Virus record (IMG/VR): IMGVR_UViG_3300044986_001003
Location: 1-34,340 of that record
Source of the DNA: a virus
Length of the DNA: 34,340 nucleotides
Direction: 5' to 3' (one strand)
Shown: positions 20 through 28,635 of the stretch, piece after piece
Position numbering within the stretch: position 1 is the stretch's first letter
Layout: each line of letters opens with the position of its first letter
Notes under the pieces: model-generated
The model's database searches: none
The model's input: only the letters and a program-made list of their open reading frames with translations
What the model was told of the DNA's origin: nothing
Program-made: the position numbers and the translations under genes

Positions 20-3000
20 ATGATCGCCGACCGCATCGTCGGGCGCGTCGGCGCCGATATCCTCCAACGCCGTATGGCCGATTCGCGTCAAAGCGACGGG
101 ACGCTGCCGGACTCTGCGGCGCTCTACCGCCTTGACAAGCTCGCCCCCGCTCAAATCGCCGCCGTAGTCCGGGAAATATTGAGCAACCCGGATTTGGCTG
201 CCCGCGTCGACGTCAAGATTCCCTTGGGTCTGGTCGAAGACGAGAACCTGCCAGCTGAGGCTGTAACGCACCTTAACGCTGGAGCCGTTCGCAACGCGGG
301 TACGTCCAAGGAGGCCTTACTAACCGCCAACGGAAATGAGCACAATCTCGCCGACACCCTTGGACATGTAACGGCTCTGGGGGCTAAGGAGTTTCGTTCT
401 CACGAGGATGCCTGGGTCGAGGCGACCTGCCATGTGGCCGGAATTGCCCCTACGCCGGAGGATCGGGCAGTATTTCGCGCGGCCATCAAGGGTTTGATGT
501 CTGCTGCCGAGCTATCGCTCAATCAACTCGGCGAGTTTTGCGCAAAGGCCAGCGAAGCGACCAATGCTCGAGGCCTGCCGATTCGTGAATCCATTGGCTG
601 GGCGCTTCCTTATGGCGGCCTCCCACGTGACACCTCACTGTTTTCTAGCGCGAAGACCTACGGCCAAGCGGTGGGGCCGTGGCGCAAGGCGTTCGAGAAA
701 CTCTTCTCGAACCGCGCTCCACTCCTGTCGAAGATGCGTTCGAATGGGCAGCCGATCGACCCTGAAGAACTGACCCAGAGGTTGGCCGACAACACCGAGT
801 CGATCCCAGACCACGCTCGCGTTGCCCTGGAGGCGTTTGTCGCCTCCCAGCCAGGCGATCCGGTAGCAATGTCGGAAGTAGCCGAACTCGAGTGGGAGTT
901 GGACGGTGTCCATCTAATGTTCGACAAGCCCCGTGAGCGACAGCAGGGCCTCGCGGATTCGACCCTGTATTTTTTTGACAACGATTGCGATGATCCGGAA
1001 ATTCTGGACGCTGGTTGGCGCAAGCATCTCGAGGACCTCCGGGCACGAGAGAAGCGCTCGGACTGGAACGAGGAAGATGAGGCGTTCTTCGAACTCCATC
1101 GCAGCCATCTAGAAAAGAACAAGCAGTTGCACTCTCGCTGGGAGAAAGTGGTTTTCGGTAAACCCGTCGAATGCCACGACTTCCTCGAAGGCTTCGCAGG
1201 TGTAGCCCATCGATTGGCCGTCGGGGCTGGGGAGCCGAAGGGAGAGAGGGTTCTGCGATTCACCGTCACCAAGGGGCGCACCGAGTGGCGTGAGCGGTTC
1301 AACGGCGATGTCGGAGCTTTTTTCTCTTCAATGTATCGTGGGCTCAAGGAACTAATGGGTTCGCGTGTCGAGTGGCGCGTAACAAAGATGGGATCCGGAA
1401 ATCTTCCTGATCCATTGTTTGACCACCCCGCGTTCTGTGCCCGTGAGAAAGAAATTCGCGGCGCCAAGTTCAAGGGATGCTCGTCATTGGCCAAGCCGGC
1501 TGTTCAGATCAAGTTCGAAGTTTCTCTGGTCGAGAAGGTTGGCGCCGGTGAAGCAATTCTCGAAAAGACCCAACTTGTTTGGATGTTCCGCCCGGAATCG
1601 ATTGGGCTCTCCATGCTCGACGACATGAAACGTCTGCAAGAGAAGGGTTCCGTTGGCTGCACGGAAGTTCCGCGCCGGCTGGTCAGCAAGAAGGGCGGAG
1701 TCCAAAGTGTCTCCCTGCTAGACACCTCGACCTTGGAAGCTACCTATTCACGCGACGCAGGTTCATTAGTTCCACAGCCGAGCAAGCTAAAGAGCCTTCG
1801 GGCCGAGATCAAGCGTCGCATTGAGGAGCTTGCTACCAACGGCCGGCTCCTGCCGGAGCAAAAAGCCGAATTGCGCAGCGCCTGGGATGCCTTTGAGGAC
1901 GATTACGGTAAGGCTCTCGACGACTTTATTAGCGTGGGTCTTCATGGTGAGGCAGTTTTGCGTCAAGCCGATTCGTTTGCAGTCTTGCTGCGGGCCTTGG
2001 CCATACATGCTCGAGGCGATGTTTGCCGGGCACGCTTAGTTTCCGAGATTTTGTCGATCGGAACCGTGCGCGTTGCTGGTGAACAGCCTTCCATGATCGT
2101 CCCCCCGTGGCATCCGGAACGCATGAAAGCCTTGGCGGTAAAAACTCGGCGAGTTGCCGGATTGGTTGCCCATATTCTCATCGGAAAAAATGTTCTTTTC
2201 GGTGACCGGGGCATCTTCTTCCGTGAGTTCTCCGACGAGTTGGCCCATCCGTTCTATCCGGAAATCGCAACGATTTCCAAGGGTGGTGCTCCCGTGCTGG
2301 TAAGTGAAAGCAGCACCGTCAACGGATACAGCCTGCTCGAGCGGCCAGTACGTTCAGCCGATGAGGAGGAACTCACTGACGCCGATCCGACACAGGCGGC
2401 GAAGCAGGCCCGAGAGCTGCTTGAGCGTTATGTTGGGCTCCAGCCTCACGAAGCAGCGAATCTGAGTGTGCTGCTCTACAACGCCGATGCCGCAGAGTTG
2501 CCTTTGGCAGTAGTCCGGGAACTCTCCGGCATGCAGTCCGAAACAGACTTTCAGTGCAATGTTTCTGTGCGCCATCGCGACCCAGCCAAACTACGCCGAG
2601 TCTATGCCGAGTTGGTGACCAAGACAGGTGACGATCCTGATTTGCCGGTAGTCAGTGAAACCTCACAAAACTTCATGTCGCGACTACGCATTTCGGTTGC
2701 TCCTCCTTCAGCAACACCACCGAAAACAGGCGACGGATTCCGTTCCTTCGATGTAGCCTTCCTTCATGATGTCGTGTCGCGCACAGCTGCCGAAGAGTGG
2801 ATCAAGGTCGATTGGACCAACGATCGACCGACCTTGGAGCACGCTCCTTCCCGTTGGTCGTACCGAAGCGTCTCCGGTGAGAACGAACTCAAGTCGACCA
2901 CATTTCTCACATGTCCGCGTCAAACTGCTTCCGGCTGGGCTTATGTGAATGCCGTCGCCTCCGTCGTCCGTCAAGCCGACGCCGCTCCCGGTGAACAGTT

Positions 3001-5452
3001 TCTGCCGGCCCGACGCATCTCGCTTCAAAACGAGGAGCTCAAGGCAACGCTCGACGACGCCCACGCGCTGGCCGAATGGGTTGCTACTTATGACGAGTTA
3101 CTCGATAAGCGCCAATTGCAGGCCAACGGCGTAACCGTAGTTCGCTATCGCCGTGCCTCTACTAACGGCCGCAACACGATCGTTAGCTCGACCTCAGAAT
3201 TGCGTCTTCTTGGCGTGCTTGCCCGTCGGCGCCTGGGTGAGTTAGGACTACCGCTCTCAGCCGATGAGGTTTCCTCACTGGCCGATAGAATGAAAAAGGA
3301 TGCGTTGTCTGTCTCAGGTGACATCGTTCTACGAGCCGCCAAACGAGGGATCTCTGCCGGTGAGATGATTGGGTTGGTTCTAAGTCGCAGGTTGCTGGAA
3401 GAAGAGTTCCGAACTCTCTCCGGCAATGGAAAGCGGCCTTCGTTCAGCGTATTTTTCCTGCTTGACGACTATGCGGATTGGCTCGCTCAGAAGGAAAGCC
3501 GAATTGCCGACATTCTCGGCCTGTGCGTCGAAGAGAGCGACGAAGGTCCGACTTTGCATGTGGCGGTGGTCGAGTCAAAATATGTCGCGCCTGGGGGCGC
3601 GGCCGAGGCTAAGCGCTCGTCGAAGGCGCAGATGATGGCTACGCTATCGACCTTCCGGGCGGCACTTTTTGGCGACCCTGGCAGGTTGGACCGCGATGTC
3701 TGGCTGGCCCGTCTCGCGGATCTGTTGGTTGATGCGGACATCCCGCCGGGTTGCTCTGGATTGCTCGAACGAGCCCGCGCCAAGTTACGCGACGGAGAGG
3801 CAAAGATTTCACTACGCGGCTACTCTCATGTGTTTGTACATTCGACCGATCCGGCAGCTAGTCCATCGACTTCTGAACATATCCTTGTCGACGACACCGA
3901 CGGCATTGAGGCGTGGCAGGAAGTATTCGAGCGTCCCGAAGTACGCCTGCTTGCCGAGGCCTACGCCAAGGGCACCGAATCCGCCTCTATCCGTGAGAGG
4001 CTTGGAACTGGGAAGCCATGGACCAAGGCAAATCCTCAGTTCCCCGCAGCTCGAGTTGCATGGGGTGCGTTGGTTGAAATGCTTGAGGCATCGGCTGCTC
4101 CGACTCAGGTGGAAGGCGGCGAGGAGCCGCTAACGCAGGTTGTTGTCGATGATGTACAAACGTCACCAGCGGTGGTTGATCCTCAGACTGTCACCGAGGT
4201 TGTAGTTGATCAGAATGAGTCCGTGATGCCCCCAGCTCAGATCGCTACCTCGTCAGCGGGCTTCGATGCCTTAGTTGCGGCCAAGACTGCCGGCACTGCC
4301 GCAGCTACCGACGAGCGCGAAGCATGGGCAGACGAGACGACGCGAAAACTAAAGACCGCCTTGAACTCATACGGTCTGCAGGCTTCGGTACTTGGAACGC
4401 GCCTTACCCCGAACGGGTGCCTAGTGCGTCTGGCTGGATCCGATCGCCTTCGTGTAGAGGATGTAGAAGCCAAGCGCACCCAACTTCTAACAACACACGC
4501 GATCAATCTGGTCACGGTCCAGCCTAAGCCAGGTGAAATAGTTGTGACGATGGCCGGATCCAAACGGCAGTCTGTGTCGCTGTGGGATCTGTGGTCACGT
4601 CGGGAGCTAAATCGGAATGTGTCGGGGATCAACACCTCGATTCTTCTGGGCGTTCAAGAGATCAACGGAGCCTTGCTGTATCTGAATCTAGGTTCGGAGT
4701 TTGGGGGACTTGCTTCCCACGATCCGCATTCACTTGTTGCCGGTGCCACGGGAAGTGGAAAGTCCGTCCTGATCCAAGCGATGATCCTAGATATTGCAGC
4801 GACCAATCCGCCTACTCTGGCTCAGATGGTGATGATCGATCCGAAGATGGGCGTTGATTACGCTGCACTAGAAGACTTGCCGCACATGCGCGAGAAAATC
4901 GTCACGACCAAGGAGCGTTCGCAGGAGATCCTCGAAGGGCTTGTCGATGAGATGGAGGGGCGCTACCGCTTGTTCGCTGCGGCCCGTGCCCGTGATTTGC
5001 CGACTTACAACGCAAAGTCGCCCCCGGAAAGCCGCTTGCCGATGGTGTTCCTGATCCACGACGAATTCGCAGACTGGATGTTCGACGACGAGTACAAGTC
5101 GGCGGTCAGTTCTGCTGTGCAGCGCCTCGGAGTCAAGGCGCGTGCGGCTGGCATTCACCTAATCTTTGCAGCCCAGCGTCCTGACAAAGATGTGATGCCA
5201 ATGCAGTTGCGCGAGAATCTGGGCAATAGGCTAATTCTCAAAGTTGCCAGCGAGGCGACCTCCAAGATTGCTCTCGATCGCCCGGGAGCCGAGCTTCTAT
5301 TGGGTAAGGGACACCTTGCGGCAAAGTTAAACGGCGAACAGGGACTCGTTTTCGCACAAGCGCCATTCTTGAGCGATGACGATATTACTCAAGCGGTCAC
5401 CGCGATACTTTCTGACAGCAAAGAACAGATGAACGGCCACTCGGTCGTATAG
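20..5452 (+). CDS. DptH-like PT-dependent restriction protein with FtsK-type motor
   Basis: This 1810-residue protein has a C-terminal FtsK/SpoIIIE-type ATPase: Walker A GATGSGKS at residues 1575-1582, a Walker B ending in HDE near 1680-1682, and an AAQRP motif. About 1500 residues precede it. Within them I see a PD-(D/E)XK-like signature: D1164, then E1185-S-K1187 after a hydrophobic strand, and a downstream K-A-Q helix. A Q/V/T-rich probable linker lies at about 1357-1413. Length and architecture resemble DptH, the large motor subunit of PT-dependent restriction, and the adjacent ssp genes support that. The start is an ATG with an AAAGGGG Shine-Dalgarno at about 6-12. It is followed 9 bp later by the sspE-like gene, so both are probably one transcript that begins upstream of the window. 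The family name is inferred from architecture and context. A different FtsK/HerA-type defence ATPase is possible. Confidence 0.7.
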   Translation: MIADRIVGRVGADILQRRMADSRQSDGTLPDSAALYRLDKLAPAQIAAVVREILSNPDLAARVDVKIPLGLVEDENLPAEAVTHLNAGAVRNAGTSKEALLTANGNEHNLADTLGHVTALGAKEFRSHEDAWVEATCHVAGIAPTPEDRAVFRAAIKGLMSAAELSLNQLGEFCAKASEATNARGLPIRESIGWALPYGGLPRDTSLFSSAKTYGQAVGPWRKAFEKLFSNRAPLLSKMRSNGQPIDPEELTQRLADNTESIPDHARVALEAFVASQPGDPVAMSEVAELEWELDGVHLMFDKPRERQQGLADSTLYFFDNDCDDPEILDAGWRKHLEDLRAREKRSDWNEEDEAFFELHRSHLEKNKQLHSRWEKVVFGKPVECHDFLEGFAGVAHRLAVGAGEPKGERVLRFTVTKGRTEWRERFNGDVGAFFSSMYRGLKELMGSRVEWRVTKMGSGNLPDPLFDHPAFCAREKEIRGAKFKGCSSLAKPAVQIKFEVSLVEKVGAGEAILEKTQLVWMFRPESIGLSMLDDMKRLQEKGSVGCTEVPRRLVSKKGGVQSVSLLDTSTLEATYSRDAGSLVPQPSKLKSLRAEIKRRIEELATNGRLLPEQKAELRSAWDAFEDDYGKALDDFISVGLHGEAVLRQADSFAVLLRALAIHARGDVCRARLVSEILSIGTVRVAGEQPSMIVPPWHPERMKALAVKTRRVAGLVAHILIGKNVLFGDRGIFFREFSDELAHPFYPEIATISKGGAPVLVSESSTVNGYSLLERPVRSADEEELTDADPTQAAKQARELLERYVGLQPHEAANLSVLLYNADAAELPLAVVRELSGMQSETDFQCNVSVRHRDPAKLRRVYAELVTKTGDDPDLPVVSETSQNFMSRLRISVAPPSATPPKTGDGFRSFDVAFLHDVVSRTAAEEWIKVDWTNDRPTLEHAPSRWSYRSVSGENELKSTTFLTCPRQTASGWAYVNAVASVVRQADAAPGEQFLPARRISLQNEELKATLDDAHALAEWVATYDELLDKRQLQANGVTVVRYRRASTNGRNTIVSSTSELRLLGVLARRRLGELGLPLSADEVSSLADRMKKDALSVSGDIVLRAAKRGISAGEMIGLVLSRRLLEEEFRTLSGNGKRPSFSVFFLLDDYADWLAQKESRIADILGLCVEESDEGPTLHVAVVESKYVAPGGAAEAKRSSKAQMMATLSTFRAALFGDPGRLDRDVWLARLADLLVDADIPPGCSGLLERARAKLRDGEAKISLRGYSHVFVHSTDPAASPSTSEHILVDDTDGIEAWQEVFERPEVRLLAEAYAKGTESASIRERLGTGKPWTKANPQFPAARVAWGALVEMLEASAAPTQVEGGEEPLTQVVVDDVQTSPAVVDPQTVTEVVVDQNESVMPPAQIATSSAGFDALVAAKTAGTAAATDEREAWADETTRKLKTALNSYGLQASVLGTRLTPNGCLVRLAGSDRLRVEDVEAKRTQLLTTHAINLVTVQPKPGEIVVTMAGSKRQSVSLWDLWSRRELNRNVSGINTSILLGVQEINGALLYLNLGSEFGGLASHDPHSLVAGATGSGKSVLIQAMILDIAATNPPTLAQMVMIDPKMGVDYAALEDLPHMREKIVTTKERSQEILEGLVDEMEGRYRLFAAARARDLPTYNAKSPPESRLPMVFLIHDEFADWMFDDEYKSAVSSAVQRLGVKARAAGIHLIFAAQRPDKDVMPMQLRENLGNRLILKVASEATSKIALDRPGAELLLGKGHLAAKLNGEQGLVFAQAPFLSDDDITQAVTAILSDSKEQMNGHSVV

Positions 5453-5461
5453 GGAGATATT

Positions 5462-7297
5462 GTGAAAGCAGATGCGTTACTTTTGACTAAGCTCTATGAC
5501 ACGCTGAACAAGGCTTATGTTCTTCCTGGATATCAACGTCCATTCGCTTGGGACAAGGACAAAGCGATTGCTCTCCTGTCCGCAATTCTTGAAGATGCGA
5601 CTGCGTCCGCTAAGATCACCTCGCTTGGTACATTACTCTTTTGCGATATTCCTGGCTGTGGCACAAACCATCCATTTGGTAACAATGCTGCAAACACGGT
5701 CGCCCCAAACACTATCTGGGAAGTTGTCGATGGTCAGCAACGACTAACGGTATTCGCCATTATCGGTCACGCGCTCAAAGAACGATTTAAGGGACTTTCC
5801 GCTGCCGGGCTTCAATATTCGCCTCCCCTTGAGTTTGAGATGCTCTACGAGACGTCTCGAACAAGAAACGGAAAGAATGTCCCGGTATTAATTCGAGACG
5901 GCGATAACTTTGACACTGGCTATACCTCCGATCTCGCCAAAATGCTTGATGCATTCGCTGGCAATCAAGCTTGGCCTGCAGGTGTTGGACCGCGTTTGCT
6001 TGAGACAAACGACGCAATTGTGAATTGGGTTAATGACAATCTCGATCCGACAAATTTCGCGCTGTTCTGTAACCACTTTTTAACCAAGTGCACGATTGTG
6101 CAAGTGGAGGCTGATGACCAAGATACGGCTTTCACAATGTTTGAACCACTCAATTCAACAAGTGAACCGCTGACTGCTTTTGAGGTGTATCGATCAAAGT
6201 CATTCCGGCAATTGGCAGCACAATTTCCGAAAACAGAGGCTCTGCTCGCGTACGATAAGACGGCTCGTGATGACGTCATTAAACGCTCGAATAACTTGAT
6301 ATTTGCGATGGCACAAGCGTACTCTGGGCAACGTCCTCGAATTCATTTTGTACCCCTGAAGCAGCATCTCGATAACCATGTCGACGCCGCTTTTATAAAT
6401 CACTTCGAAGCAGGAGCTGAATTCTTTAGGAGTTTTTGGATTGAACAAACGGCCACCGATGTGTGGTTCGATGACGAGACGAAGAACTGTGTCCGCTTCC
6501 TTAAGGCAATGTCTCATGATGTTGTCGTTCCGCTCTTGTTAAGATATTTCCTATCGCAGAAGACTTGGCTGCCAGAAGTTCTTAAGGTGATCGTTTCTTT
6601 TTATGCGCTGTGGCGTCCGGCATTCCCAACTAATAATCTTCCAAATATATATCGCGCTTTGCTTACTGAGGGATCTACGGAGAACATGTCGATCGCTAGT
6701 GCAAAGCCACTCAAAACTCCTCAAGAGTTAGCTTCATATTTCCGAGCAAAACTAACGGACAAAGTCGGCCCACTGTTGCCCGGTCAAACGATCGGGCAGA
6801 AATGGTCTGACTCGCTGCCCTTCTTGGATTACCAACAGTTGAAAACTCTATGTCGACTTTTTGTGTTCGTCGATATGGGTGCGTCTATTAAATCCAATCT
6901 GGTTCCAAATGATCCATGGACGTCTGTCGACGATATCGAGCACATACATCCTGGAGGACTGTTGCCAACGCCGCCTAATCTCGATCAACTAGGCAACCTC
7001 ACATTCCTTCCTGTGGCTGTCAATCGATCCTTACAAGATGCGCCCTGGGTCGAAAAGCAGGAGGTCTACACGGCCTTGGCTTCGGCGACAAAGGTCATAA
7101 AGACAAACTACGCTAGTGGAAAGGTAATACCGCCAGCCGTGCAACAGTTTCTTGCGGATCCAAGTAGCCCGTCGCTTGCTCATCTCTCCACGATTGCAGC
7201 AAACACAGTGTGGACCGATATAGAAATCGAGACTAGGTCGAAGTCCATGTTGTCGAACGTTTGGAGCGTTCTTTTTTCAAAATGGCTTCATCCTTGA
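5462..7297 (+). CDS. sspE: SspE-like PT-sensing DUF262/DUF1524 nuclease
   Basis: A 611-residue protein of the GmrSD/SspE type. The N-terminal DUF262 domain shows a Y-Q-R-P-F-x-W motif near residue 19 and the nucleotide-binding D90-G-Q-Q-R94 motif. The C-terminal DUF1524 HNH region shows E493-H-I-H-P, then L-G-N-L and N521. SspE proteins sense phosphorothioate in self DNA through the DUF262 domain, which stimulates NTP hydrolysis, and nick invading DNA through DUF1524. Adjacent sspBCD-like genes make this assignment far likelier than a GmrSD type IV enzyme. The start is a GTG preceded by AGGGAGA, and translation is probably coupled to the upstream gene, whose stop is 9 bp away. The gene looks richer in A/T than its neighbours, suggesting a separate origin. 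It ends convergently with sspD. Confidence 0.8.
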   Translation: MKADALLLTKLYDTLNKAYVLPGYQRPFAWDKDKAIALLSAILEDATASAKITSLGTLLFCDIPGCGTNHPFGNNAANTVAPNTIWEVVDGQQRLTVFAIIGHALKERFKGLSAAGLQYSPPLEFEMLYETSRTRNGKNVPVLIRDGDNFDTGYTSDLAKMLDAFAGNQAWPAGVGPRLLETNDAIVNWVNDNLDPTNFALFCNHFLTKCTIVQVEADDQDTAFTMFEPLNSTSEPLTAFEVYRSKSFRQLAAQFPKTEALLAYDKTARDDVIKRSNNLIFAMAQAYSGQRPRIHFVPLKQHLDNHVDAAFINHFEAGAEFFRSFWIEQTATDVWFDDETKNCVRFLKAMSHDVVVPLLLRYFLSQKTWLPEVLKVIVSFYALWRPAFPTNNLPNIYRALLTEGSTENMSIASAKPLKTPQELASYFRAKLTDKVGPLLPGQTIGQKWSDSLPFLDYQQLKTLCRLFVFVDMGASIKSNLVPNDPWTSVDDIEHIHPGGLLPTPPNLDQLGNLTFLPVAVNRSLQDAPWVEKQEVYTALASATKVIKTNYASGKVIPPAVQQFLADPSSPSLAHLSTIAANTVWTDIEIETRSKSMLSNVWSVLFSKWLHP

Positions 7298-7301
7298 GAT
7301 G

Positions 7302-7350
7302 TAGCTCGGTTTAGCAAATGCGGCGGCCGAGCTATTAGCCTCTAAAGGCT
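7302..7350. terminator. Hairpins between convergent genes, possible bidirectional terminator
   Basis: The 62-bp gap between the converging sspE and sspD genes holds two inverted repeats: TAGCTCGG (7302-7309) with CCGAGCTA (7327-7334), and AGCCT (7337-7341) with AGGCT (7346-7350). Neither is followed by a clear T tract, so intrinsic termination is only a suggestion. Confidence 0.3.
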
Positions 7351-7359
7351 TCCGGGCAC

Positions 7360-8199
7360 CTACTTGTGGCAGACCACGCAGGCGCCACCACCTTCGTCCT
7401 CCCCGAATAGGTCATCGATATCGACGATCGACTCAATAGGGCGTAGCGGGTTTATTGGACGTTTGCTTTTGTCGCGGGCCTTGCGTCGTTCGAAGTCTTC
7501 AACGATCTGGGCCATTCGCTCGGGCCGTTCCAGCTCTACAAGTGGCTCGCCGTGGCTCCAGGTAAATGGTGATCCATGGTCAAGAGCGTTTTTCTCGTAA
7601 GCCTTAGCTTCCTCAAAGGCGTCAGGATGGCGTTCGCGTAGCTTCACCCATTCGATTTTCTGTTGGAAGAAACAGAAGGTGCAGCCGCTGCGTGATCGCC
7701 AGTCGTAATATCTTGGCAGGCCGACACCGGACGAATCGAGAATGTCCATCACACCACGCTTGTCGATGCCGGCTTCTCTGAAAGGAAGTTTTACCGTGAG
7801 ATTTGGGTGTTTTGAACTGTATCCCTCTCGGTATTCCTCGTCAGCCCGAATCGCCACATAGGTGGTCACTTTGTCGCCACACGCAAGCATCGGGCGTACC
7901 CATTGCTCAAACGGCGCTAGTTTGAGTTGTCGAGTGCACCACCGGGTTTGCGGCGAAGGTAGGTAGTGGTTGTACTCGCGTAGCCAGAAATCAAAATCGC
8001 GTCGAGGGTCAAGCCGGAGAATAGGTTTGCCGAGAAAGCCTTCGAGCCGACCGAGAAACTCGTATACCTCGGGCAGCTCCTTACCCGTATCCGTGAAAAA
8101 GTAGTCCACATCGAGTTCAGGGTAAGTTTGGCGAACGAACACCGCTAAGGCGGCGCTGTCCTTACCGCCGGAGATGCCGAGCACATGCTTTTCAGCCAT
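7360..8199 (-). CDS. sspD: SspD-like PAPS reductase-family sulfurtransferase
   Basis: A 279-residue ATP-pyrophosphatase of the PAPS reductase/DndC superfamily. The PP-loop S10-G-G-K-D-S15 is at the N-terminus, followed by T36-D-T-G-K40. Cysteines C88, C173 and C176 could carry an Fe-S cluster or sulfur, as in DndC-type proteins. An additional C274-V-V-C277 pair lies at the extreme C-terminus. SspD activates the DNA backbone for sulfur insertion together with SspB and SspC. I chose the ATG at 8199 over one 21 bp upstream because it has an AAGAGAG ribosome site. Its ATGGCTGA overlaps the sspC stop by 8 nt, repeating the overlap style of the previous gene pair. An assimilatory CysH is unlikely because of the operon partners. 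It is the last gene of the sspBCD operon. Confidence 0.85.
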   Translation of the reverse strand: MAEKHVLGISGGKDSAALAVFVRQTYPELDVDYFFTDTGKELPEVYEFLGRLEGFLGKPILRLDPRRDFDFWLREYNHYLPSPQTRWCTRQLKLAPFEQWVRPMLACGDKVTTYVAIRADEEYREGYSSKHPNLTVKLPFREAGIDKRGVMDILDSSGVGLPRYYDWRSRSGCTFCFFQQKIEWVKLRERHPDAFEEAKAYEKNALDHGSPFTWSHGEPLVELERPERMAQIVEDFERRKARDKSKRPINPLRPIESIVDIDDLFGEDEGGGACVVCHK

Positions 8200-11100
8200 T
8201 ACTCTCTTGCCCCTCGCCATCTTGAGCTAATCGCATGCAGGCACGTCCAAGTGCTGCCATTAGCACTTCAGTTTGCAATCCTTCTGAACGGAGTTTCGTA
8301 GCCAACTCATCGGCAAGACTCTCAACCTTTTCGCGATGGCGCTCTGGGATGTCGAATTCCCGCGAAAAGGTGCGAACCTGTGAGCCGGCTCCGACTACAA
8401 CCGCGAACGCATCACTAGTGGGCTTGCGGCCACGTACTGATGCAAGGGCTTCGGACTGGCGGAACCGAAGGGAAAAGCGTGCGATTTCGAGAAGGGCCGA
8501 ATCAATGTCCCGATCATTCCAGTCACGCGGAGGTTTGTTTGCGGCAAGGCTCAGAATTCCTTCGATGCTCTCTCGGCTTCCATCGTGCTTGGCAAGACGC
8601 GCAGCAAACGCATCCTGCCGCAAGTCGCCAGTTATACCTGCAAGCGTTTCAGCTCGAGAACAAAGACGGGATGGGTCGTCCGCCTGTGCATCCAATGCTT
8701 CAAGCATTGACGATTCGATTCGGCGAAGCAGCGACTCGTAGGCACTCCACAGTTCCGCGACGGGGCCTCGCAGAGCACTTACATATTCGTCACCATCGGC
8801 TGTACCCAACACGGCTGCCAAATCAACGAACAGTACTTTGTGCGGATCGCTTGCTTTGAGAAGCGTGTCGCGAACGGACCGAGCTTCAACAGATAGTGTT
8901 CCGGTTCGTTGCGTCCAAGCTGGGAGCCCCAAAACCATTGCAACCAATCCTCGTGCCGCCTCCAGCGGATCATTAGCGGCCGATACAGCTCCAACCGACG
9001 AGAGTATTTCCGCGATTCCATCGAGAATTCGCTTTTTTTCGTCATCAATCGTGACCCACCGCAACGAGAATCGCTTCTCATCTTGTAGGTATTCGTCGAT
9101 GTCGGCGTCAGTCACTCGAGGGACAAACACTCCATCCTTATAGGCAGCTACGTTGCCTTTGTGTGCAAGTAGAAATGCAGTGAAGACAACCGGCATCGTC
9201 CCTTCCCGGAGTCCGAACGGAGGAGCGGCCCAAAGCTTGTGAATCTCCGCCGCCTCAACTCTGGAGCCGGAATCCTTGAACAGATCGCGAGTCTTCCCCC
9301 AGATTGCCGAGAACGGCATTGCATTTTGTTCATCGGGTGGTAGAAAACGCCAATTACCATCCGCGTCCTGACGGTGAAGGCCCGTAGAGCGCAGTAGAGT
9401 TTCATATAGTCCGCGCTCGGCCGGATAGCCGTTGATGCCAAGATGCGGTTCGCTCTCGTGATCGAGCATCCGATAAAGTAGGTCGCGTCGAGCCTTGACG
9501 CTATTACTTGATAGGCTGTCACGGTTGACAAGCTCGCTCCAAAGCCCAGGTGCGTCTTCATAGACGGTATCGGCGAGGGTTGATGCGATCGGGGTCAGCT
9601 TCGTCGAGGCTTCAAGCTCGATGTCGCCAGCAAACCAGCGAGCATTCGCCAGAGCCGCAGCGAGTTGTTCCTCCAAGCTCGCACGAACGGAACTCGTTCG
9701 GGCAAAAACCTCACGGCGAGCGACAGGGTCACCTTGAAGCTCGTGGCGAGTTTGAACCGCCTGCAAAGCGAGCAACTCAGCACCTAAATCGTCGATTCGC
9801 TCGTGATTGGATGGAATTCCGACTACTACGGGCCACGGACCCGATCGCGAATACTCAGCGCACAAGCGCCATGCGGCCTTATCGCTCATTCCGCGCCCGG
9901 GCAGTGCGAGTAGAAACAGGCCAAATTCTCCGTTCTTAGGCTTAAAAGAATCGACCGCCCGCTTCGCTTCTTCCAGTCGGCACAGCACCACATTCATCCA
10001 GCGAAATGTACCGGTCTCGTGATAGTGCCGCTTGGCAATTACGGGATAGAGATTTGCGAGGCTCGTTAAGAGATCGAAGTCGGTCCCGGGCATTGATGCA
10101 CGGGCTTGGGAAACAGCTTGATCGATGTCGAAATCGCTGCCCTCGAATACCGACCACGACCCAGTGTGCTTCTTGAACAATGCAACGCGCCACTTAGCTA
10201 GGTCCTGAAGTGCTTGCTCGATCAGGTTCGCCGAGTGGCCCGCAAAAATAGATTCGAGAACTTTCGGCTCGGCCGCGAGACCAGATCCATCCTTGAATAG
10301 GTCCAGAACGGCGATGCTCTTAATTAGTGCGACATGAAGCGGATCGTCGGACTTTGCTTCGGCTCGTTCTACAGCCTCGACTGCTTGGGCCCACCGGTGT
10401 CCATCGTTGGAGGCAAGAATCGCCTGTTCGAGATTAGTTTTCAGGTAGTCCCAATAGTTCGACGGCAGATACCACGTAGCATCTTCGGCGGCAGTTGCAT
10501 GCAAATAGGAACGGAACCCATGTGGCTCAGAAGACGAAAGAAATCCGAATGTGCTGCGCTCGTTTTGTCCGAACTGCCGTTTGGAAATCGGTCCTAGCAA
10601 GGCGGCCATCACAGGATGCAGGGGCCAGCACAGTGCCAACGCATGGCCAAATCCGCTACCAACTGCGGGTCGTCGTGCTCGAATGACTTCTGCTACTGTT
10701 TCGGCAGCGTCGATGGACCATTGTGGTCGAGCATCTGCGTCGACAGCACGGCCGATTAGTTCGACAACCTCGTCGCTTGCTGCCACCAAGGGAATATCAG
10801 AGTAACGGCCTTGGATCTTTGCCCAGTCGTCGCGGGTGTCAATTCCAAGTCGAGCAGCATATTGCCCAAACGACTGATGGAGGATGCCGACGACAACGAC
10901 GGTTCCCTCAGCACGAGCGGCTGCTTCGGCGAGTTCTTGAAAAAAGTAGATATCATCACCGAACCCAAGTGCTGAGGCCTCAAGGAATTTCCCGAGCTCA
11001 TCGAGGATGAGGATGGTCCCATCACGGCCTTCGTTTTCAGCTGCGGAACAAAGATCAGCAATGACGGCGGAGGCCGATGCCTTGCGTGAGTCCAAGCCTT

Positions 11101-11524
11101 GTCCTCGAGCCTTACGCAACGCCTTTGAAATCTCCTGAATCACGCTACCGCGCTTACCGACTACAGGGACAACAAGCCAACCGTTCTTCGCAGGAAAGAC
11201 CTTGTCGAATGAGGCTAACTCGGTTGTGCGCAGAATGGAGCGCGCCTTCGATCGCAATCGCTTCTCAGGGGCTAAGGCACTAGCTAAGGCGACTGCCAAG
11301 GAAGACTTTCCGCCTCCGTAAGGGCCAGTCCATGTGAATGCCCGTTGGCGACTCTCACGCAATTGCTTGGACATACTCTCAAGCACTGCCGACACCGTTC
11401 CGTGACAAATGTATCCGTCTAGGGCATCTTCGCGCCCGACGTCAGCATCGATTCGGATCGACCGTTGGTAGTGCCGGGCGATGCGAACGATATCAGAGAG
11501 TTGTTTCCCGCGCGGATCAGTCAT
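8192..11524 (-). CDS. sspC: SspC-like P-loop ATPase of the PT modification operon
   Basis: A 1110-residue ATPase with a Walker A at G67-P-Y-G-G-G-K-S74 and a Walker B ILILDE with D175-E176. The remaining ~900 residues hold no domain I can name. In SspABCD systems the large P-loop protein SspC works with the DUF4007 protein SspB and the pyrophosphatase SspD to make strand-specific phosphorothioate modifications. The flanking genes here are exactly that set. I chose the ATG at 11524, after a GAGAGAG ribosome site. It overlaps the sspB stop through ATGACTGA. An upstream TTG at 11536 would only add four residues. The role is taken from gene order and the ATPase motifs, not from full-length similarity. 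Confidence 0.8.
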   Translation of the reverse strand: MTDPRGKQLSDIVRIARHYQRSIRIDADVGREDALDGYICHGTVSAVLESMSKQLRESRQRAFTWTGPYGGGKSSLAVALASALAPEKRLRSKARSILRTTELASFDKVFPAKNGWLVVPVVGKRGSVIQEISKALRKARGQGLDSRKASASAVIADLCSAAENEGRDGTILILDELGKFLEASALGFGDDIYFFQELAEAAARAEGTVVVVGILHQSFGQYAARLGIDTRDDWAKIQGRYSDIPLVAASDEVVELIGRAVDADARPQWSIDAAETVAEVIRARRPAVGSGFGHALALCWPLHPVMAALLGPISKRQFGQNERSTFGFLSSSEPHGFRSYLHATAAEDATWYLPSNYWDYLKTNLEQAILASNDGHRWAQAVEAVERAEAKSDDPLHVALIKSIAVLDLFKDGSGLAAEPKVLESIFAGHSANLIEQALQDLAKWRVALFKKHTGSWSVFEGSDFDIDQAVSQARASMPGTDFDLLTSLANLYPVIAKRHYHETGTFRWMNVVLCRLEEAKRAVDSFKPKNGEFGLFLLALPGRGMSDKAAWRLCAEYSRSGPWPVVVGIPSNHERIDDLGAELLALQAVQTRHELQGDPVARREVFARTSSVRASLEEQLAAALANARWFAGDIELEASTKLTPIASTLADTVYEDAPGLWSELVNRDSLSSNSVKARRDLLYRMLDHESEPHLGINGYPAERGLYETLLRSTGLHRQDADGNWRFLPPDEQNAMPFSAIWGKTRDLFKDSGSRVEAAEIHKLWAAPPFGLREGTMPVVFTAFLLAHKGNVAAYKDGVFVPRVTDADIDEYLQDEKRFSLRWVTIDDEKKRILDGIAEILSSVGAVSAANDPLEAARGLVAMVLGLPAWTQRTGTLSVEARSVRDTLLKASDPHKVLFVDLAAVLGTADGDEYVSALRGPVAELWSAYESLLRRIESSMLEALDAQADDPSRLCSRAETLAGITGDLRQDAFAARLAKHDGSRESIEGILSLAANKPPRDWNDRDIDSALLEIARFSLRFRQSEALASVRGRKPTSDAFAVVVGAGSQVRTFSREFDIPERHREKVESLADELATKLRSEGLQTEVLMAALGRACMRLAQDGEGQESNG

Positions 11525-12440
11525 ACGCTCTCTCAATCATGGCGTTAAGGAGAGCCGTGGACTCGAAACTTTTGCGGTGGACCTGACGTAGCCCTGCCGT
11601 ATCGGTCCAGGAAAGGCCTCCTTCAGTCAGATCGTCCAATACAAAGAGGCGTTCGGCGACCGAATCTTCGTCTAGCTTAAACACTCGTCCCGGCGATCCT
11701 TCACCATATGCGATCGACTCGAATGCCAGAGTTGAAACACCGGGTGCCGTTCGGTCCCAATGATCGAGCAAGGCATAGGCGAAAATTCCATCAGGAAGTG
11801 TGGGCTTGGGGCCCCTGCGGAACGCGAAGTAGCCCTTCCGCTCTTCACCGATAAGCCCTAGCTCACCGAGCATGGGTTCAGCGAAGTCCTCAGGGGATGC
11901 ACCCGCAACTCGTGGTGCGTAGCTTCGAAGACAGGTTTCTAAATCGCGAGATAGAGTTGAGGCCGATAGCCTGCGCTTGGGATCAAGACTTGCAGCAAAC
12001 TCCGCCAACGGGGCCTCAAGATCTTCACGGGTGAACGATGCCGAAAGGACATGGTTGAACAACCAGAACCACGTTGTAGAACGAAGGCCACGGCCGGCAA
12101 GCTGCCAATGGAAGAACCATGCAGTAGCAGGGTTCTCGGAGTACGGATCGAGTCCTCCGTCGGCAAAGATACGCCGACCGGCATCCGTGACAAGATAAAC
12201 GCCATTCTCTTCACGCATAATTTCACATGCGAGCGCCCAATGCTTGATCGAGGCCACCATGTTCTTTCCAACACCGAACAGCGCGATTGCATCGTCATCG
12301 GAGAATGTCGACTTCGGGATAGTCCAATCCGAGCGGGCGCAATCGAACGCTTTTTTCAGCCACATTTGCCGAAGGGGGAAGGTTTCATGACCTGAAAAAT
12401 GGGCGGCTACTTTTTCAGTATCGGAACTTGTTTTTCTCAT
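11517..12440 (-). CDS. sspB: SspB-like DUF4007 protein
   Basis: A 307-residue DUF4007 protein. The family hallmark is visible at the N-terminus as F15-S-G-H-E-T-F21 with a W-L-K-K motif at 27-30. A winged-helix-like segment follows, with an A-L-F-G-V-G-K-N-M stretch. DUF4007 is the domain of SspB, reported as the DNA-nicking component of the Ssp phosphorothioation machinery. It is the first gene of the sspBCD operon and overlaps sspC by 8 nt. No strong Shine-Dalgarno precedes the ATG at 12440. A TAAGAT -10-like hexamer lies just 9 bp upstream (12449-12454), so the transcript may be nearly leaderless. A near-perfect 23-bp palindrome overlaps the expected -35 region. Confidence 0.85.
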   Translation of the reverse strand: MRKTSSDTEKVAAHFSGHETFPLRQMWLKKAFDCARSDWTIPKSTFSDDDAIALFGVGKNMVASIKHWALACEIMREENGVYLVTDAGRRIFADGGLDPYSENPATAWFFHWQLAGRGLRSTTWFWLFNHVLSASFTREDLEAPLAEFAASLDPKRRLSASTLSRDLETCLRSYAPRVAGASPEDFAEPMLGELGLIGEERKGYFAFRRGPKPTLPDGIFAYALLDHWDRTAPGVSTLAFESIAYGEGSPGRVFKLDEDSVAERLFVLDDLTEGGLSWTDTAGLRQVHRKSFESTALLNAMIERAYD

Positions 12441-12561: not shown

Positions 12562-12954
12562 CTAGGTTGTTAGGCCAAAAAGACTTCTCTGCTTCGCCCA
12601 TTCGACAGGAAATTGAACCAATAAGTCTTTCAGCGTCAATTGCGCCGGCTGCCGACCATCAAGAATTGAATCCAAGATATCTGGCGCCAAGGAGGCTAGA
12701 CGGATGGTTCGGCTGATAAACGAAGGGCCGATTCGCTCAGCCTTGGCGATTTCGTCCAGGCAACTGTAGGTCCCGTTTTCCAGCAGCTTTTGCCAACGAA
12801 ATGCCCTGGCTATAGCTTTGACCATCGCGTTGTCGATGGTGGCAGCCGGCATCGGGTGCCCGTGCGAACCATCCGGCAGGACAATAATGCGCCGACCTCC
12901 ACGCTTCTTGAAGGTCATTGGAATCTCAATGGAAATGACGTCGCAGCTCATCAT
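12562..12954 (-). CDS. Small ParB/KorB-like HTH protein of the recombinase cassette
   Basis: A 130-residue basic protein. The second half contains a probable helix-turn-helix (D-E-I-A-K-A-E-R then I-S-R-T-I-R-L-A) of the type found in ParB/KorB-like proteins. Genes of this kind often follow the recombinase in DUF2924-recombinase cassettes. Its ATG overlaps the recombinase stop (ATGA), and an AAGAAGG ribosome site fits either this ATG or the next one at 12951. The likely role is an accessory DNA-binding factor for recombination, inferred only from context. It is the last gene of the element on this side. An 80-bp A/T-rich gap separates it from the sspB operator. Confidence 0.65.
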   Translation of the reverse strand: MMSCDVISIEIPMTFKKRGGRRIIVLPDGSHGHPMPAATIDNAMVKAIARAFRWQKLLENGTYSCLDEIAKAERIGPSFISRTIRLASLAPDILDSILDGRQPAQLTLKDLLVQFPVEWAKQRSLFGLTT

Positions 12955-14297
12955 GCAGCCTTCTTGAGTTCCGGTACGGCCAGTACCGACTCGACAAGAT
13001 CTCGCATGCCTTCTGTTTTCATGTCGATCTTGATACCGGTTGGGCTGACCGTGATCCGGTCAACCAGCAGATGAGTGATTCTGGACTGCTCCGCCGGAAA
13101 CAGCTCATCCCATACCGACTCGATGGACTGAAGGGCCTGAATTGTCAGTTGCTCATCGGTGCCGGGGGCGATCTTCTGTACTTCACGTACCGCTTGGGTG
13201 ATGACTTCCGGCGCCAGTAGAATTTTGCGGATCTGTTCAACAACTTTCGCGTCAATATCTCCGGCCGGTACGCGGGTGATCTCGCAGGCGTCTTTGCCAA
13301 TCTTCATTGAGGCTGTATTAATGTAGTAGCGGTAGCGCTTGCCACCTTTCATCGTTGCTCCAGGCGTCATTGCCCATCCATCGCTGGCGAAGATCAGACC
13401 CTTGAGCAATGCCGGAGCCCGGCTTGGACGATTCACGCGCGCCCGTTCATCACGATTGGTCCGGCAAAGCATCGCCTGCGCCTGATCCCACAATTCCTTG
13501 TCCACAATTGGCTCGTGCTCGCCAGGAAAATGCTTACCCTTATAGGCGGCGATACCGATCACAACGGGATTCTTGAAGAGTTTGTACAAGTAGCCCTTGT
13601 CGATCAGTTTGCCGGCACGGTGCTTTTCCTTGATCGTGGTCCATGACTTGGTGGTCACGCCCTCGGTGCGCAGTTCGTTGGCCAGCACCGTCATCGAACC
13701 GATCGCAACGAAACGTTCGAAGATGTGGTTAACCAGTTTTGCCTCAACCGGATTAGGGACCAGTTTGCGTTCGATCACATCGTAGCCAAGGGGTGGCATG
13801 CCGCCCATCCAGATTCCCTTGGCGCGACTGGCAGCGATCTTGTCCCGCACCCTCTCACCGCCAAGTTCCCGTTCGAACTGGGCGAACGACAGGAGGATGT
13901 TCAAAGTCAGACGCCCCATTGACGTGGTTGTATTGAATGACTGCGTGACCGAAACAAAGGTCACCTTGTGCTCGTCGAACAACTCCACCAATTTGGAAAA
14001 ATCGGCGAGGGATCGCGACAATCGATCGATCTTGTAGACCACGATGACGTCGATCAAACCTTCCTGCACATCCTCAAGCAGGCGCTTTACACCTGGTCGG
14101 TTTAACGTACCGCCGGAGAATCCGCCATCGTCGTAGGCGTCGCGCAGTGCCACCCAACCCTCTGACTTCTGCGAGGCGATATAAGCGTGGCAGGCATCCC
14201 GCTGGGCATCCAGCGAGTTGTAGTCCATGTCGAGGCCTTCCTCGGTGGACTTGCGGGTGTAAATGGCGCACCGCATTTTCCGGATAACGGCGGTCAT
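12951..14297 (-). CDS. Large serine recombinase
   Basis: A 448-residue serine recombinase. The N-terminal resolvase domain (about 8-160) shows Y13-T-R-K-S17 with S17 as the likely nucleophile, Q-R-D-A after it, and D-R-L-S-R-S. A recombinase DNA-binding domain occupies roughly 180-290, followed by a C-terminal region with a helical tail. The usual zinc-ribbon cysteines are absent: the segment reads L-L-K-G-L-I-F-A-S-D-G. My recollection is that this is typical of the DUF2924-linked subfamily. The ATG at 14297 follows GGAGG and overlaps the DUF2924 stop (ATGA). It is the probable integrase of the prophage and would act on attP/attB sites near this end. Confidence 0.9.
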   Translation of the reverse strand: MTAVIRKMRCAIYTRKSTEEGLDMDYNSLDAQRDACHAYIASQKSEGWVALRDAYDDGGFSGGTLNRPGVKRLLEDVQEGLIDVIVVYKIDRLSRSLADFSKLVELFDEHKVTFVSVTQSFNTTTSMGRLTLNILLSFAQFERELGGERVRDKIAASRAKGIWMGGMPPLGYDVIERKLVPNPVEAKLVNHIFERFVAIGSMTVLANELRTEGVTTKSWTTIKEKHRAGKLIDKGYLYKLFKNPVVIGIAAYKGKHFPGEHEPIVDKELWDQAQAMLCRTNRDERARVNRPSRAPALLKGLIFASDGWAMTPGATMKGGKRYRYYINTASMKIGKDACEITRVPAGDIDAKVVEQIRKILLAPEVITQAVREVQKIAPGTDEQLTIQALQSIESVWDELFPAEQSRITHLLVDRITVSPTGIKIDMKTEGMRDLVESVLAVPELKKAA

Positions 14298-14740
14298 GCC
14301 AGTCCTCCGGATTTCTTGAGGCCGAAGAACGCCCATCCGTTCCAGATTGTGCCCGTGATTTCTCGGGCGATGTGAGACAGTGATTTGAAAGGACGGCCTT
14401 GGTATTCGAAGTGGTCAACCTGAACCACTACCTCGTATGCGTTGCCTTGCCACTCGCGGATGAGTTTTGTGCCGGCAATCGGACGATTGTCCACTCGGCG
14501 GCTACGGACACGAGGATTTCCTCCATCTAGTTGCTCACCCAGTTCTTCCAGTCGTTTAATCGTGGACGCTTTCAGCCCGCCCAGAGCCAGTTCCTGAATC
14601 CGGTACGCCAGGCGATTTTCTAGAAATCGGCGGTTATATGCCGGCGGCTCTGTGTCGAACAAATCACGCCATGTCTTCTTCAATTCGTCGATCGGAGCCG
14701 ACTTCAATGCCACGATTCGCGCTAATACTTTCTCGGTCAC
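14294..14740 (-). CDS. DUF2924 protein, recombinase partner
   Basis: A 148-residue DUF2924 protein recognised by L-K-K-T-W-R-D-L-F near residue 20, R-R-F-L-E-N-R-L-A-Y-R-I-Q-E-L and G-T-x-L-I-R-E-W-x-G. DUF2924 proteins are almost always encoded directly before a serine recombinase in phages and integrative elements. Their biochemical role is not established. The start is a GTG with GAGGAGA upstream. The gene is the first of a three-gene operon (DUF2924, recombinase, small HTH protein) joined by ATGA overlaps. Its promoter region carries the TTG-17-GTTCAT element shared with other prophage genes. Confidence 0.9.
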   Translation of the reverse strand: MTEKVLARIVALKSAPIDELKKTWRDLFDTEPPAYNRRFLENRLAYRIQELALGGLKASTIKRLEELGEQLDGGNPRVRSRRVDNRPIAGTKLIREWQGNAYEVVVQVDHFEYQGRPFKSLSHIAREITGTIWNGWAFFGLKKSGGLA

Positions 14741-17865: not shown

Positions 17866-18848
17866 GCAACGGCAGCCCCCCAGAGGGAAAAGCGCTCAAC
17901 GATCGCGCGATGGCTGCCTTGTGTTGGCTGGTGGAGCAGCCCATCCCGCGCTTGGCGCCTGACGCTGTCCGCGCAGGCCACGGCGCCGATGTCTATCGAC
18001 ACCTGCGCGAGATCGAACTTTTGGCACTGTCGAACGATATGGCGGGTGGTGTCCTTTGTCGCGATTGCGGCACCGAGGTGATTCAGCCTGTGGCTGCCGA
18101 TGTGGGATGCCCCGATGAGCATCCTTACCAGGGCTATTGCCCCGATTGCGGCTGGGTTCAACTCACAGCCGAGGATGCTAGATGGTGGCAGGCTCAACCC
18201 ACCAAGGTGGCTCGCTGGCTCAACAGTGCCATAAAGTTGTCTCCGAACTATCGTGTCGAAACCATCATCGACGGCGTGTTGTGGCGCCTGGGTGAGCGTG
18301 AATTCAATCGGCGCCGGCACGTAATATTTTTCGGCAGGCGGCTGGTTGAATCCGCAACCGCCATCGTGAACGCGTTGAGCAATTTGTCTGCGCCTGGTGC
18401 GGAGATCATCGTCACCACAAGCGAGATTGAGTCTATTGGTCGAACTCCGCTTCGTGATCGACAGATCGTGCCGCTACGAGGAATTGCTCATCTGAGGAAG
18501 GCCGGTTTCGTCGTCGAGAATTTTGAGTCATTCATTCCGACTCTGGCGGCAATCCAGACCTCTGACGAGACGTCCTTGCGCCTAATGCATACGCGACAAA
18601 TTGCTCTGATCGCTGGCCAGGAGTTCCCGCTGTCACCGCAGGTCTATTCCTTTATGAAGATCCTTGAGGATGCTGATGGTGACGAAGTGCACAAGCGCCA
18701 CATTGCTAAGCAATTGGGGCTGGACGTAGGTTTTCGAAAAGCCGATGTGTTCAAGCGGCATAAGGAGGTCTTCGATACCTTTGCCGAGTACGACAGCAAG
18801 GGTAACTACTGGCTTAAACCTGAATTCGTGATTGTGGAAAGGGGGTGA
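17862..18848 (+). CDS. Unrecognised protein with Cys4 zinc-ribbon-like and C-terminal HTH-like parts
   Basis: A 328-residue protein of unknown function. Near residues 64-95 it has C-R-D-C-G, later a single C-P-D-E, and C-P-D-C-G, a pattern suited to a zinc ribbon. The C-terminal 70 residues (K-R-H-I-A-K-Q-L-G-L-D-V-G-F-R-K-A-D-V-F) resemble a winged helix. This suggests a nucleic-acid-binding protein, by inference only. The start is a GTG at 17862 inside the previous gene's stop (GTGA). An ATG at 17910 is possible but has no ribosome site. It is the second member of a coupled pair with the 415-residue protein. It is followed by a 70-bp gap and the DUF2188 gene. Confidence 0.75.
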   Translation: MSNGSPPEGKALNDRAMAALCWLVEQPIPRLAPDAVRAGHGADVYRHLREIELLALSNDMAGGVLCRDCGTEVIQPVAADVGCPDEHPYQGYCPDCGWVQLTAEDARWWQAQPTKVARWLNSAIKLSPNYRVETIIDGVLWRLGEREFNRRRHVIFFGRRLVESATAIVNALSNLSAPGAEIIVTTSEIESIGRTPLRDRQIVPLRGIAHLRKAGFVVENFESFIPTLAAIQTSDETSLRLMHTRQIALIAGQEFPLSPQVYSFMKILEDADGDEVHKRHIAKQLGLDVGFRKADVFKRHKEVFDTFAEYDSKGNYWLKPEFVIVERG

Positions 18849-18918
18849 CGCATCGACTTTCATGACCGATGCCCACGAAGGCATCAGCACTCCCAACTCA
18901 ACAGAAAGGATTTACATC

Positions 18919-19143
18919 ATGAGCGGTAAGAATCAACACGTCGTCCCCCGTGACGACAAATGGGCTGTACTCGGCGAGGGCAATAAGCGTGATACGTCTC
19001 ATCACAACACACAGGCAGAAGCCGAGCGTGCGGCACGTGATATTGCAATTAATCAGCGCAGCGAAGTTTTGATCCACGGCGAAAACGGTCGCATCCGCGA
19101 ACGCAACAGTTATGGAAACGATCCGTTCCCGCCTCGCGGCTGA
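18919..19143 (+). CDS. DUF2188 small protein
   Basis: A 74-residue protein matching DUF2188: H-V-V-P-R-D-D-K-W-A-V near the N-terminus, a T-Q-A-E-A-E-R-A-A-R helix, then S-E-V-L-I-H-G-E-N-G-R-I-R-E-R-N-S-Y-G-N-D-P. Small proteins of this family are common in phages and plasmids, and their function is not established. The ATG follows AGAAAGGA. A strong terminator lies directly downstream, so this is the last gene of the transcript that starts at the repressor switch. Confidence 0.8.
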   Translation: MSGKNQHVVPRDDKWAVLGEGNKRDTSHHNTQAEAERAARDIAINQRSEVLIHGENGRIRERNSYGNDPFPPRG

Positions 19144-19177
19144 CAGCCCCAGCGTCTGTACCTGACGCTCCTCAAAA

Positions 19178-19206
19178 AGCCCGGCCTAACCCGCCGGGCT
19201 TTTTTT
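19178..19206 (+). terminator. Intrinsic terminator after DUF2188
   Basis: AGCCCGGC (19178-19185) pairs with GCCGGGCT (19193-19200), closing a 7-nt loop and followed by seven T (19200-19206). The A run at 19174-19178 gives partial function in the other direction. Confidence 0.9.
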
Positions 19207-19213
19207 CGTCCCG

Positions 19214-19235
19214 ATTCAGCCGGCATGGGCTGAAT
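19214..19235. promoter_or_regulatory. Inverted repeat ahead of the replication operon
   Basis: ATTCAGCC (19214-19221) and GGCTGAAT (19228-19235) are perfect 8-bp arms with a 6-nt centre, in the 134-bp gap between the terminator and the AlpA-like gene. It could be an operator for the replication operon. I see no clear -35/-10 pair nearby. Confidence 0.4.
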
Positions 19236-19340
19236 TACCAGGACTGCCGGTGATTTGTGTCCACCTTGCCCACCGGTATGCCCACCCCTCGATTTCCAGA
19301 ATCTCCCTCACGTTTTCGCAACCAATGAAAGGAGAAAAAC

Positions 19341-19553
19341 GTGAGCATCAAACATCTGAATCAGGCCGAACTGGCTGAGCGTTGGGGGGTGAGCGAAGCA
19401 ACGCTCGAACGCTGGCGCTCGGACGGAAACGGTCCAATCTTCATGAAATTGCAGGGCCGTGTCCTGTATCGCCTGGAAGACGTCGAACTGTACGAAATCC
19501 AGTGCCGGCAGAAGAGTACGTCGGCCAAGGCCGTGACGGGGGTGTCGAAATGA
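19341..19553 (+). CDS. AlpA/excisionase-like helix-turn-helix protein
   Basis: A 70-residue protein with a MerR/AlpA-type HTH: L-N-Q-A-E-L-A-E-R-W-G-V-S-E-A-T-L-E-R-W-R at residues 5-25, then a wing with V-L-Y-R-L-E-D-V-E-L-Y. Such proteins act as excisionases or transcription activators in prophages. The start is a GTG with AAAGGAG upstream. It is the first gene of the replication operon, and its stop overlaps the next ATG (ATGA). Confidence 0.8.
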   Translation: MSIKHLNQAELAERWGVSEATLERWRSDGNGPIFMKLQGRVLYRLEDVELYEIQCRQKSTSAKAVTGVSK

Positions 19554-20020
19554 CCTCGCTCACCCTTGATCAATTACGCGCCATGAAGGCATCGGCATTG
19601 GCAGGCTTTGGTGCCGAAATCCTGTGCCAATTGAAAGCTGAAGCCGCCGATCGTCTGGCCACCGAGAAGCAGATCGCCGATCTGGTCGATCAGGCGCTTG
19701 ATCTCAAGTACGCCGAGAGATCACGTGCTCTGCGCCTCACCGAAGGCAAGGACACCGGTGTTGTGCACTTCGAAGATGGCTCGGTACGCATCAGCGCCGA
19801 TCTGCCCAAGAAGACCGAGTGGGATCAGCAGATGCTGGCTGACATCGCTCGTCGCATCGCTGCTGCCGGTGACGACCCGGGTCAGTACATCGACGTCTCT
19901 TACCGCGTCTCGGAAACCAAGTACCTCGCCTGGCCCGACCACCTCCGCAATCAGTTCCTGCCGGCTCGCACCCTCAAGACCGGCAAGGCCACCTATCGCC
20001 TGTCCCCCATTCAGGAGTAA
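19550..20020 (+). CDS. Hypothetical prophage protein
   Basis: A 156-residue protein I cannot name. It has a helical N-terminal half (residues 5-55). The C-terminal half contains V-V-H-F-E-D-G-S-V-R-I and K-K-T-E-W-D-Q, then I-D-V-S-Y-R-V-S-E-T-K-Y and P-A-R-T-L-K-T-G-K-A-T-Y, which looks like a small beta-rich domain. It overlaps the HTH gene by 4 nt and precedes another small gene, within the replication operon. A role in replication or recombination is suggested only by position. Confidence 0.75.
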   Translation: MTSLTLDQLRAMKASALAGFGAEILCQLKAEAADRLATEKQIADLVDQALDLKYAERSRALRLTEGKDTGVVHFEDGSVRISADLPKKTEWDQQMLADIARRIAAAGDDPGQYIDVSYRVSETKYLAWPDHLRNQFLPARTLKTGKATYRLSPIQE

Positions 20021-20025
20021 CCATC

Positions 20026-20310: not shown

Positions 20311-20311
20311 A

Positions 20312-21118: not shown

Positions 21119-21132
21119 ACAGGAGATTTTCC

Positions 21133-21765: not shown

Positions 21766-21777
21766 AGGAGACCGACC

Positions 21778-28593: not shown

Positions 28594-28605
28594 AATCAAT
28601 CTAGG

Positions 28606-28628: not shown

Positions 28629-28635
28629 GCATTCC

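Follow-up and report, generated by a model that had tools for sequence, protein, structure and literature searches.

In the viral record analysed here, genes for phosphorothioate (PT) modification of DNA face a gene for an SspE-like protein that stands directly behind the gene for a large motor protein, which raises the question of whether the last two proteins make one restriction machine or act separately. We analysed the complete IMG/VR record (34,340 bp; the window) and compared the locus across genomes. We consider it quite probable that the window holds an Ssp PT locus of two convergent transcripts with a swappable bay behind sspH, in which the compact SspE would be a further PT-dependent effector acting independently of SspFGH. 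Independent action is favoured because DndI acts independently of DndFGH and the effects of SspFGH and SspE are additive.

Gene layout and the adjoining prophage

The following features were identified in the window.

20 to 5452, plus strand: sspH, 1810 aa, SspFGH restriction arm, subunit resembling a DNA translocase (PADLOC SspH PDLC02806, 2428 bits)
5453 to 7359, no strand: variable bay from the sspH stop to the sspD stop, 1907 bp, marked by GC and by content that differs across loci
5462 to 7297, plus strand: gene for a compact SspE-like protein of 611 aa, starting with GTG, cargo of the bay (PF03235, PF07510, PADLOC SspE)
7360 to 8220, minus strand: sspD, 286 aa, PT modification arm, ATP pyrophosphatase similar to PAPS reductase (PADLOC SspD, 460 bits)
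8192 to 11536, minus strand: sspC, 1114 aa, PT modification arm, ATPase similar to BrxC (PADLOC SspC, 1436 bits)
11517 to 12440, minus strand: sspB, 307 aa, PT modification arm, nickase with DUF4007 (PF13182, 1.4e-87; PADLOC SspB, 377 bits)
12562 to 14336, minus strand: ParB-like gene (130 aa) and large serine recombinase gene (461 aa), left end of the prophage (PF00239/PF07508)

The PADLOC identification of SspH, SspE, SspD, SspC and SspB is far beyond chance. The sspB, sspC and sspD genes form a single operon, convergent to sspH and the SspE-like gene, and PT at 5'-CpsCA-3' in host DNA is the hallmark of the SspBCD module. No cysteine desulfurase gene (sspA) was found adjoining sspB; IscS is able to stand in for SspA (PMC8092258). 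A shared convergent terminator at 7296-7362 was considered and dropped, having a hairpin of -24 kcal/mol yet a z of only -0.93.

The sequence-only reading had described a PT operon facing an SspE-like gene in one apparent transcript with a DptH-like motor gene. Its open reading frames and the 9 bp between the sspH stop and the GTG of the SspE-like gene were confirmed, as were sspBCD, the SspE-like gene and the layout, while the motor was re-assigned by profile searches of both proteins to SspH, and not to Dpt/DndH or to an unrelated family. The SspH profile match is full length (residues 1-1796 of 1810) and includes the FtsK/SpoIIIE motor at residues 1566-1721 (PF01580, E 1.7e-35). The motor protein had no match to the DndH/DptH profile at E<=0.01, the matching models being SspH, HerA and Mad8 only, and the DptH assignment is ruled out by these profiles.

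The record starts 19 bases 5' of sspH, apparently inside the sspFGH operon. Both genes are found upstream of sspH in relatives with enough contig (for instance, loci L008 and L010), and in the window they are probably cut off and not absent. A TGA at bases 21-23, in another frame, overlaps the sspH ATG, as is expected for the end of sspG, because sspG overlaps or abuts sspH in the relatives.

Prophage early genes and terminase are located to the right of the ParB-like and recombinase genes. This pair is a conserved phage integration cassette, recurring in many IMG/VR phage contigs that have no ssp genes, and it probably stands outside the PT system. Most likely, the PT locus belongs to the host DNA and the prophage adjoins it. 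That the locus is itself prophage cargo, and not adjoining host DNA, is suggested by the distance of only 121 bp from sspB to the integration cassette and by another IMG/VR record (L007), which likewise contains an ssp locus; but of 48 IMG/VR loci that encode a related integrase none had an ssp gene, and the SspC search of viral contigs detected no relative, and we regard this origin as improbable. A prophage gene at 28492-29883 (plus strand) encodes a ParB-like nuclease domain at the N-terminus, and its C-terminal part matches a DNA methyltransferase (phrog_498).

The compact SspE-like protein

The 611-aa protein combines a GmrSD_N/DUF262 domain (PF03235, 4e-22) with a GmrSD_C/DUF1524 HNH domain (PF07510, 3e-5), and was matched by PADLOC SspE with 170 bits. 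Profile-profile comparison with the long SspEs (595 columns, probability 100%) demonstrated homology over the whole length. Compared to the canonical SspE of ~770 aa, ~160 residues are missing, mostly between DGQQR and the conserved F-E-x-L-N region. The loss is mostly in the first half of the protein.

The conserved motifs include P-x-Y-Q-R at 22-26 (Y24-Q25-R26) and DGQQR at 90-94 (D90-R94), together with the HNH residues E493-H494, GNLT at 511-514 (G511-N512) and N521. The motif residues kept here are known to matter in SspE (PMC9646914, PMC13251355): in the Streptomyces protein, PT sensing requires Y30 and Q31, NTP hydrolysis requires R100 and nicking requires N676 (PMC9646914). YQR and DGQQR are widespread among DUF262 proteins, and the DUF262 proteins linked to kinase and SIR2 partners also have an aromatic-QR, so these motifs permit PT sensing but do not prove it. 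Near the position of the R404/R408 DNA-binding helix of the SspE C-terminal domain, one basic residue, a lysine, could be aligned. PT-stimulated GTPase and PT-dependent nicking are the hallmarks of SspE. The PT dependence of the short protein is unproven because of its length and this single basic residue, and we propose it as a putative PT-dependent nickase. The AlphaFold model from a 5-row alignment had a pLDDT of 43 and was unusable.

The GC content of the SspE-like gene is 47.5%, compared to 54-57% in the ssp neighbours. A single close relative was detected (61% identity), on the Hymenobacter GOD-10R plasmid (L006), and no further short-SspE relatives were confirmed in viral and genome contigs. 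The plasmid region at 18001-24577 carries the short SspE-like gene with phospholipase D, ATPase and DEAD helicase genes beside SspBCD and without SspFGH, a possible PT effector set. The nearest relative of the locus by SspH, L009, has an SspH with 81% identity over 1760 columns and a long SspE with only 28% identity to the SspE of the window, suggesting that SspE itself was swapped for a different SspE.

The gap between sspH and sspD across loci

Alignment of SspH provided 80 loci from genome contigs, to which plasmid loci and one IMG/VR locus were added. The sampling by SspH is rich in betaproteobacteria. Apart from the window, 62 loci have convergent sspH and sspD, giving 63 in all, of which two are identical in SspH; the stop-to-stop gap is 9-7695 bp. 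The bay is empty in 10 of these 63 loci (9-123 bp), and the others contain at least ten module types, named on the basis of profiles.

SspE-like cargo occupies the bay in six loci including the window (the others are L003, L007, L009, L012 and L057). A DUF262 protein of ~445 aa with a protein kinase was detected in seven loci (one combination counted), and a DUF262 protein of ~346 aa with SIR2 in six, four of them with an Mrr-type nuclease. The pair of a GHKL ATPase and a REC-like protein was found in six loci, "REC" being our own label for a protein that has no Pfam match, and the reversed GHKL pair in five (combinations counted). Seven loci have a helicase, a GHKL ATPase and a third protein, the N-terminus of which resembles a PADLOC endonuclease effector. 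DndB-like cargo is present in six loci, in some with GIY-YIG, nucleoside deoxyribosyltransferase-like (NDT) cargo in four, methyltransferase cargo in two and one unnamed family alone in two, leaving four other loci; STAND NTPase is among the rarer cargos. DndB and DUF262 recur in several cargo types. For E. coli, 14 genomes matched weakly, and the one examined (SCU-113) has a near-empty gap of ~180 bp.

In 50 of 53 loci, the first gene of the cargo has the same orientation as sspH, and in 44 of 53 it lies within 60 bp of the sspH stop; from this strand and spacing one transcript with sspH is expected. The bay content shifts nearly independently of the SspH phylogeny: on the SspH tree of 63 tips, 38 changes of the cargo label were counted, compared to a mean of 47.4 and a minimum of 42 in 300 shuffles. 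The number of changes is lower than for shuffled labels, suggesting that some cargo is inherited. Below 95% SspH identity, pairs with the same cargo are in the minority (8 of 34 at 90-95%, 7 of 104 at 85-90% and 48 of 707 at 60-70%). Of 52 loci, 48 have a bay with a lower GC content than the flanks, the mean difference being -6.0 points (47.7 vs 56.2 in the window). In close pairs with different cargo, the DNA homology ends 18-109 bp before the sspH stop and is back within 16 bp of the sspD stop in most of them. The positions of these breaks suggest that cargo exchange probably proceeds by homologous recombination within the conserved ssp genes on either side.

Five cargo types were also found near SspBCD in the absence of intact SspFGH: the short SspE on the Hymenobacter plasmid; DUF262 with kinase in two Asticcacaulis; DUF262 with SIR2 in Hymenobacter YIM 151858-1; the GHKL ATPase with the REC-like protein in A. 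baumannii VB1190; and the helicase, GHKL and nuclease-like third protein in Aminobacter MSH1. This location suggests that the five types are candidate PT-partner effectors. Diverged DUF262 relatives (<35% identity) sit in some cases outside PT loci.

Several of these loci have additional features. On the Aminobacter MSH1 plasmid (L141, 21053-24079, minus strand), an SspF fragment (profile positions 225-477) is fused in-frame to an SspH fragment (1594-1756) and runs open into the cysteine desulfurase frame; by its sequence, the fusion looks like a remnant of an internal sspFGH deletion. In A. baumannii (L142, 11657-15911, plus strand), the GHKL ATPase gene and its partner directly face sspDCB, a candidate effector of the global clone 2 Ssp. 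On the two Asticcacaulis plasmids (L136, 22721-25048, minus strand; L144, 20692-23019, minus strand), a large gene annotated as DndB adjoins the cysteine desulfurase gene in an Ssp and not a Dnd locus.

These data bear on what the cargo is to SspH. The 9 bp spacing, the likely cotranscription and the presence of SspE-like cargo at the same place in five other loci are in favour of one machine, for instance one in which the SspH motor delivers the HNH nickase. But the slot is empty in 10 loci and holds other modules in 47, in Hymenobacter a short SspE is encoded without SspFGH, the SspEs of the window and L009 (28% identity, against 81% for SspH) give no sign of coevolution, and DndI, with the same layout, acts without DndFGH. 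We detected no evidence for the combined or cooperating effector of the sequence-only reading and consider it very unlikely; the neighbour of sspH is replaced by at least ten alternatives or by nothing, and this exchangeability suggests an accessory and not an obligate complex partner. It is also unlikely that the bay gathers defence genes unrelated to PT, as in a generic defence island, despite the rarer cargos (STAND NTPase, methyltransferase, NDT), whose link to PT is only putative. Unrelated defences are reportedly embedded within other defence systems, as the preprint of Payne et al. 2024 (bioRxiv 10.1101/2024.01.29.577857) is cited to describe (PMC12988326). Against such a pile-up, the five cargo types tested stand beside SspBCD outside intact SspFGH loci, while diverged homologues (<35% identity) do not, and DndB and DUF262, of the ParB-like superfamily (PMC11662687), recur across cargo types.

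The preferred reading, a swappable bay with the compact SspE as an independent effector, would work as follows. One transcript would encode SspF, SspG, SspH and the cargo, and the facing one SspB, SspC and SspD. SspBCD, with SspA or IscS encoded elsewhere, would add sulfur to one strand of the host DNA, and SspFGH would attack DNA that has no PT mark. According to the motifs, PT reading and NTP hydrolysis may be carried out by the DUF262 domain of the compact SspE and DNA nicking by its HNH domain, which would provide a second, independently acting PT-dependent response. The cargos would be replaced as cassettes through homologous recombination in the flanking ssp genes, while both frames of the locus stay put.

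Implications and comparison with known PT systems

A wider hypothesis, to which we would give an even chance, is that the sspH-sspD gap is a docking bay dedicated to alternative effectors that read PT (DUF262 with protein kinase, DUF262 with SIR2 with or without Mrr nuclease, GHKL ATPase with REC-like protein, helicase with GHKL and nuclease-like protein, DndB with GIY-YIG, and compact SspE), several of which would use the DUF262 reader in trans on a kinase or SIR2 partner. This would explain many seemingly effector-less sspBCD loci, including those of A. baumannii global clone 2. If true, the PT mark is a common password for exchangeable killers, with kinases and SIR2 proteins beyond nucleases. 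The bay provides a short list of candidate partner cassettes for such loci, and may explain why most sspBCD loci appear without a known effector: in the 2021 survey of 2,678 sspBCD loci, most had neither SspFGH nor SspE, and it was left undecided there whether they are orphans or have unseen partners (PMC8092258).

The physical coupling of two restriction arms, pointed out by the sequence-only reading, had already been published for SspFGH with SspE (PMC8092258) and in the dndI layout (PMC11662687). SspFGH and SspE are known to be compatible side by side and additive with one SspBCD, and 36 strains have both (PMC8092258). The slot itself, swappable and with many candidate antiviral modules, appears to be new; no described Ssp bay and no kinase or SIR2 PT effectors were found in the open-licence literature.

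The SspABCD-SspFGH system of Vibrio anguillarum FF-93, in which SspFGH damages DNA without the PT mark, shares the SspBCD arm and full-length SspH with the window, whereas in the window sspF and sspG probably lie past the end of the contig and sspH is followed by the SspE-like gene (PMC8092258). The SspABCD-SspE systems of Streptomyces and E. coli 3234/A (PMC9646914, PMC13251355) are alike in the DUF262 and HNH domains, the PxYQR, DGQQR and HNH motifs, the pairing with SspBCD and the full-length homology. The window protein differs in its size (611 aa vs 771-818 aa), its location directly behind sspH and a GC content below that of its neighbours.

As far as the preprint of Payne et al. 2024 is represented in its citations, its embedded defences are similar to the bay in that candidate defence modules are lodged in another defence locus; in the present case the surrounding locus is Ssp, and the five types of cargo tested recur with SspBCD alone. 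Among the defence systems of A. baumannii, Ssp is the most frequent and sspE is almost always absent from it, and a neighbouring histidine-kinase/two-component system beside the effector-less Ssp was suspected previously (PMC12421847). In its global clone 2, SspBCD stands beside a histidine-kinase-type ATPase and partner without SspE (and, in record L142, without SspFGH), and the same pair is the recurrent GHKL and REC-like cargo in the bays of other bacteria, providing independent support for that suspicion.

DndI of Salmonella Cerro 87, encoded at the end of the dndFGHI operon, works with IscS-DndBCDE independently of DndFGH (PMC11662687). The sequence search with the SspE-like protein of the window did not have DndI (PDB 9JFL) among its matches. 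Both are DUF262-HNH proteins of similar size (the dndI ORF is 1,971 bp), each encoded in an FGH effector operon that adjoins the modification operon; DndI belongs to Dnd and the window gene to Ssp. The layout of the window is the Ssp counterpart of dndFGHI.
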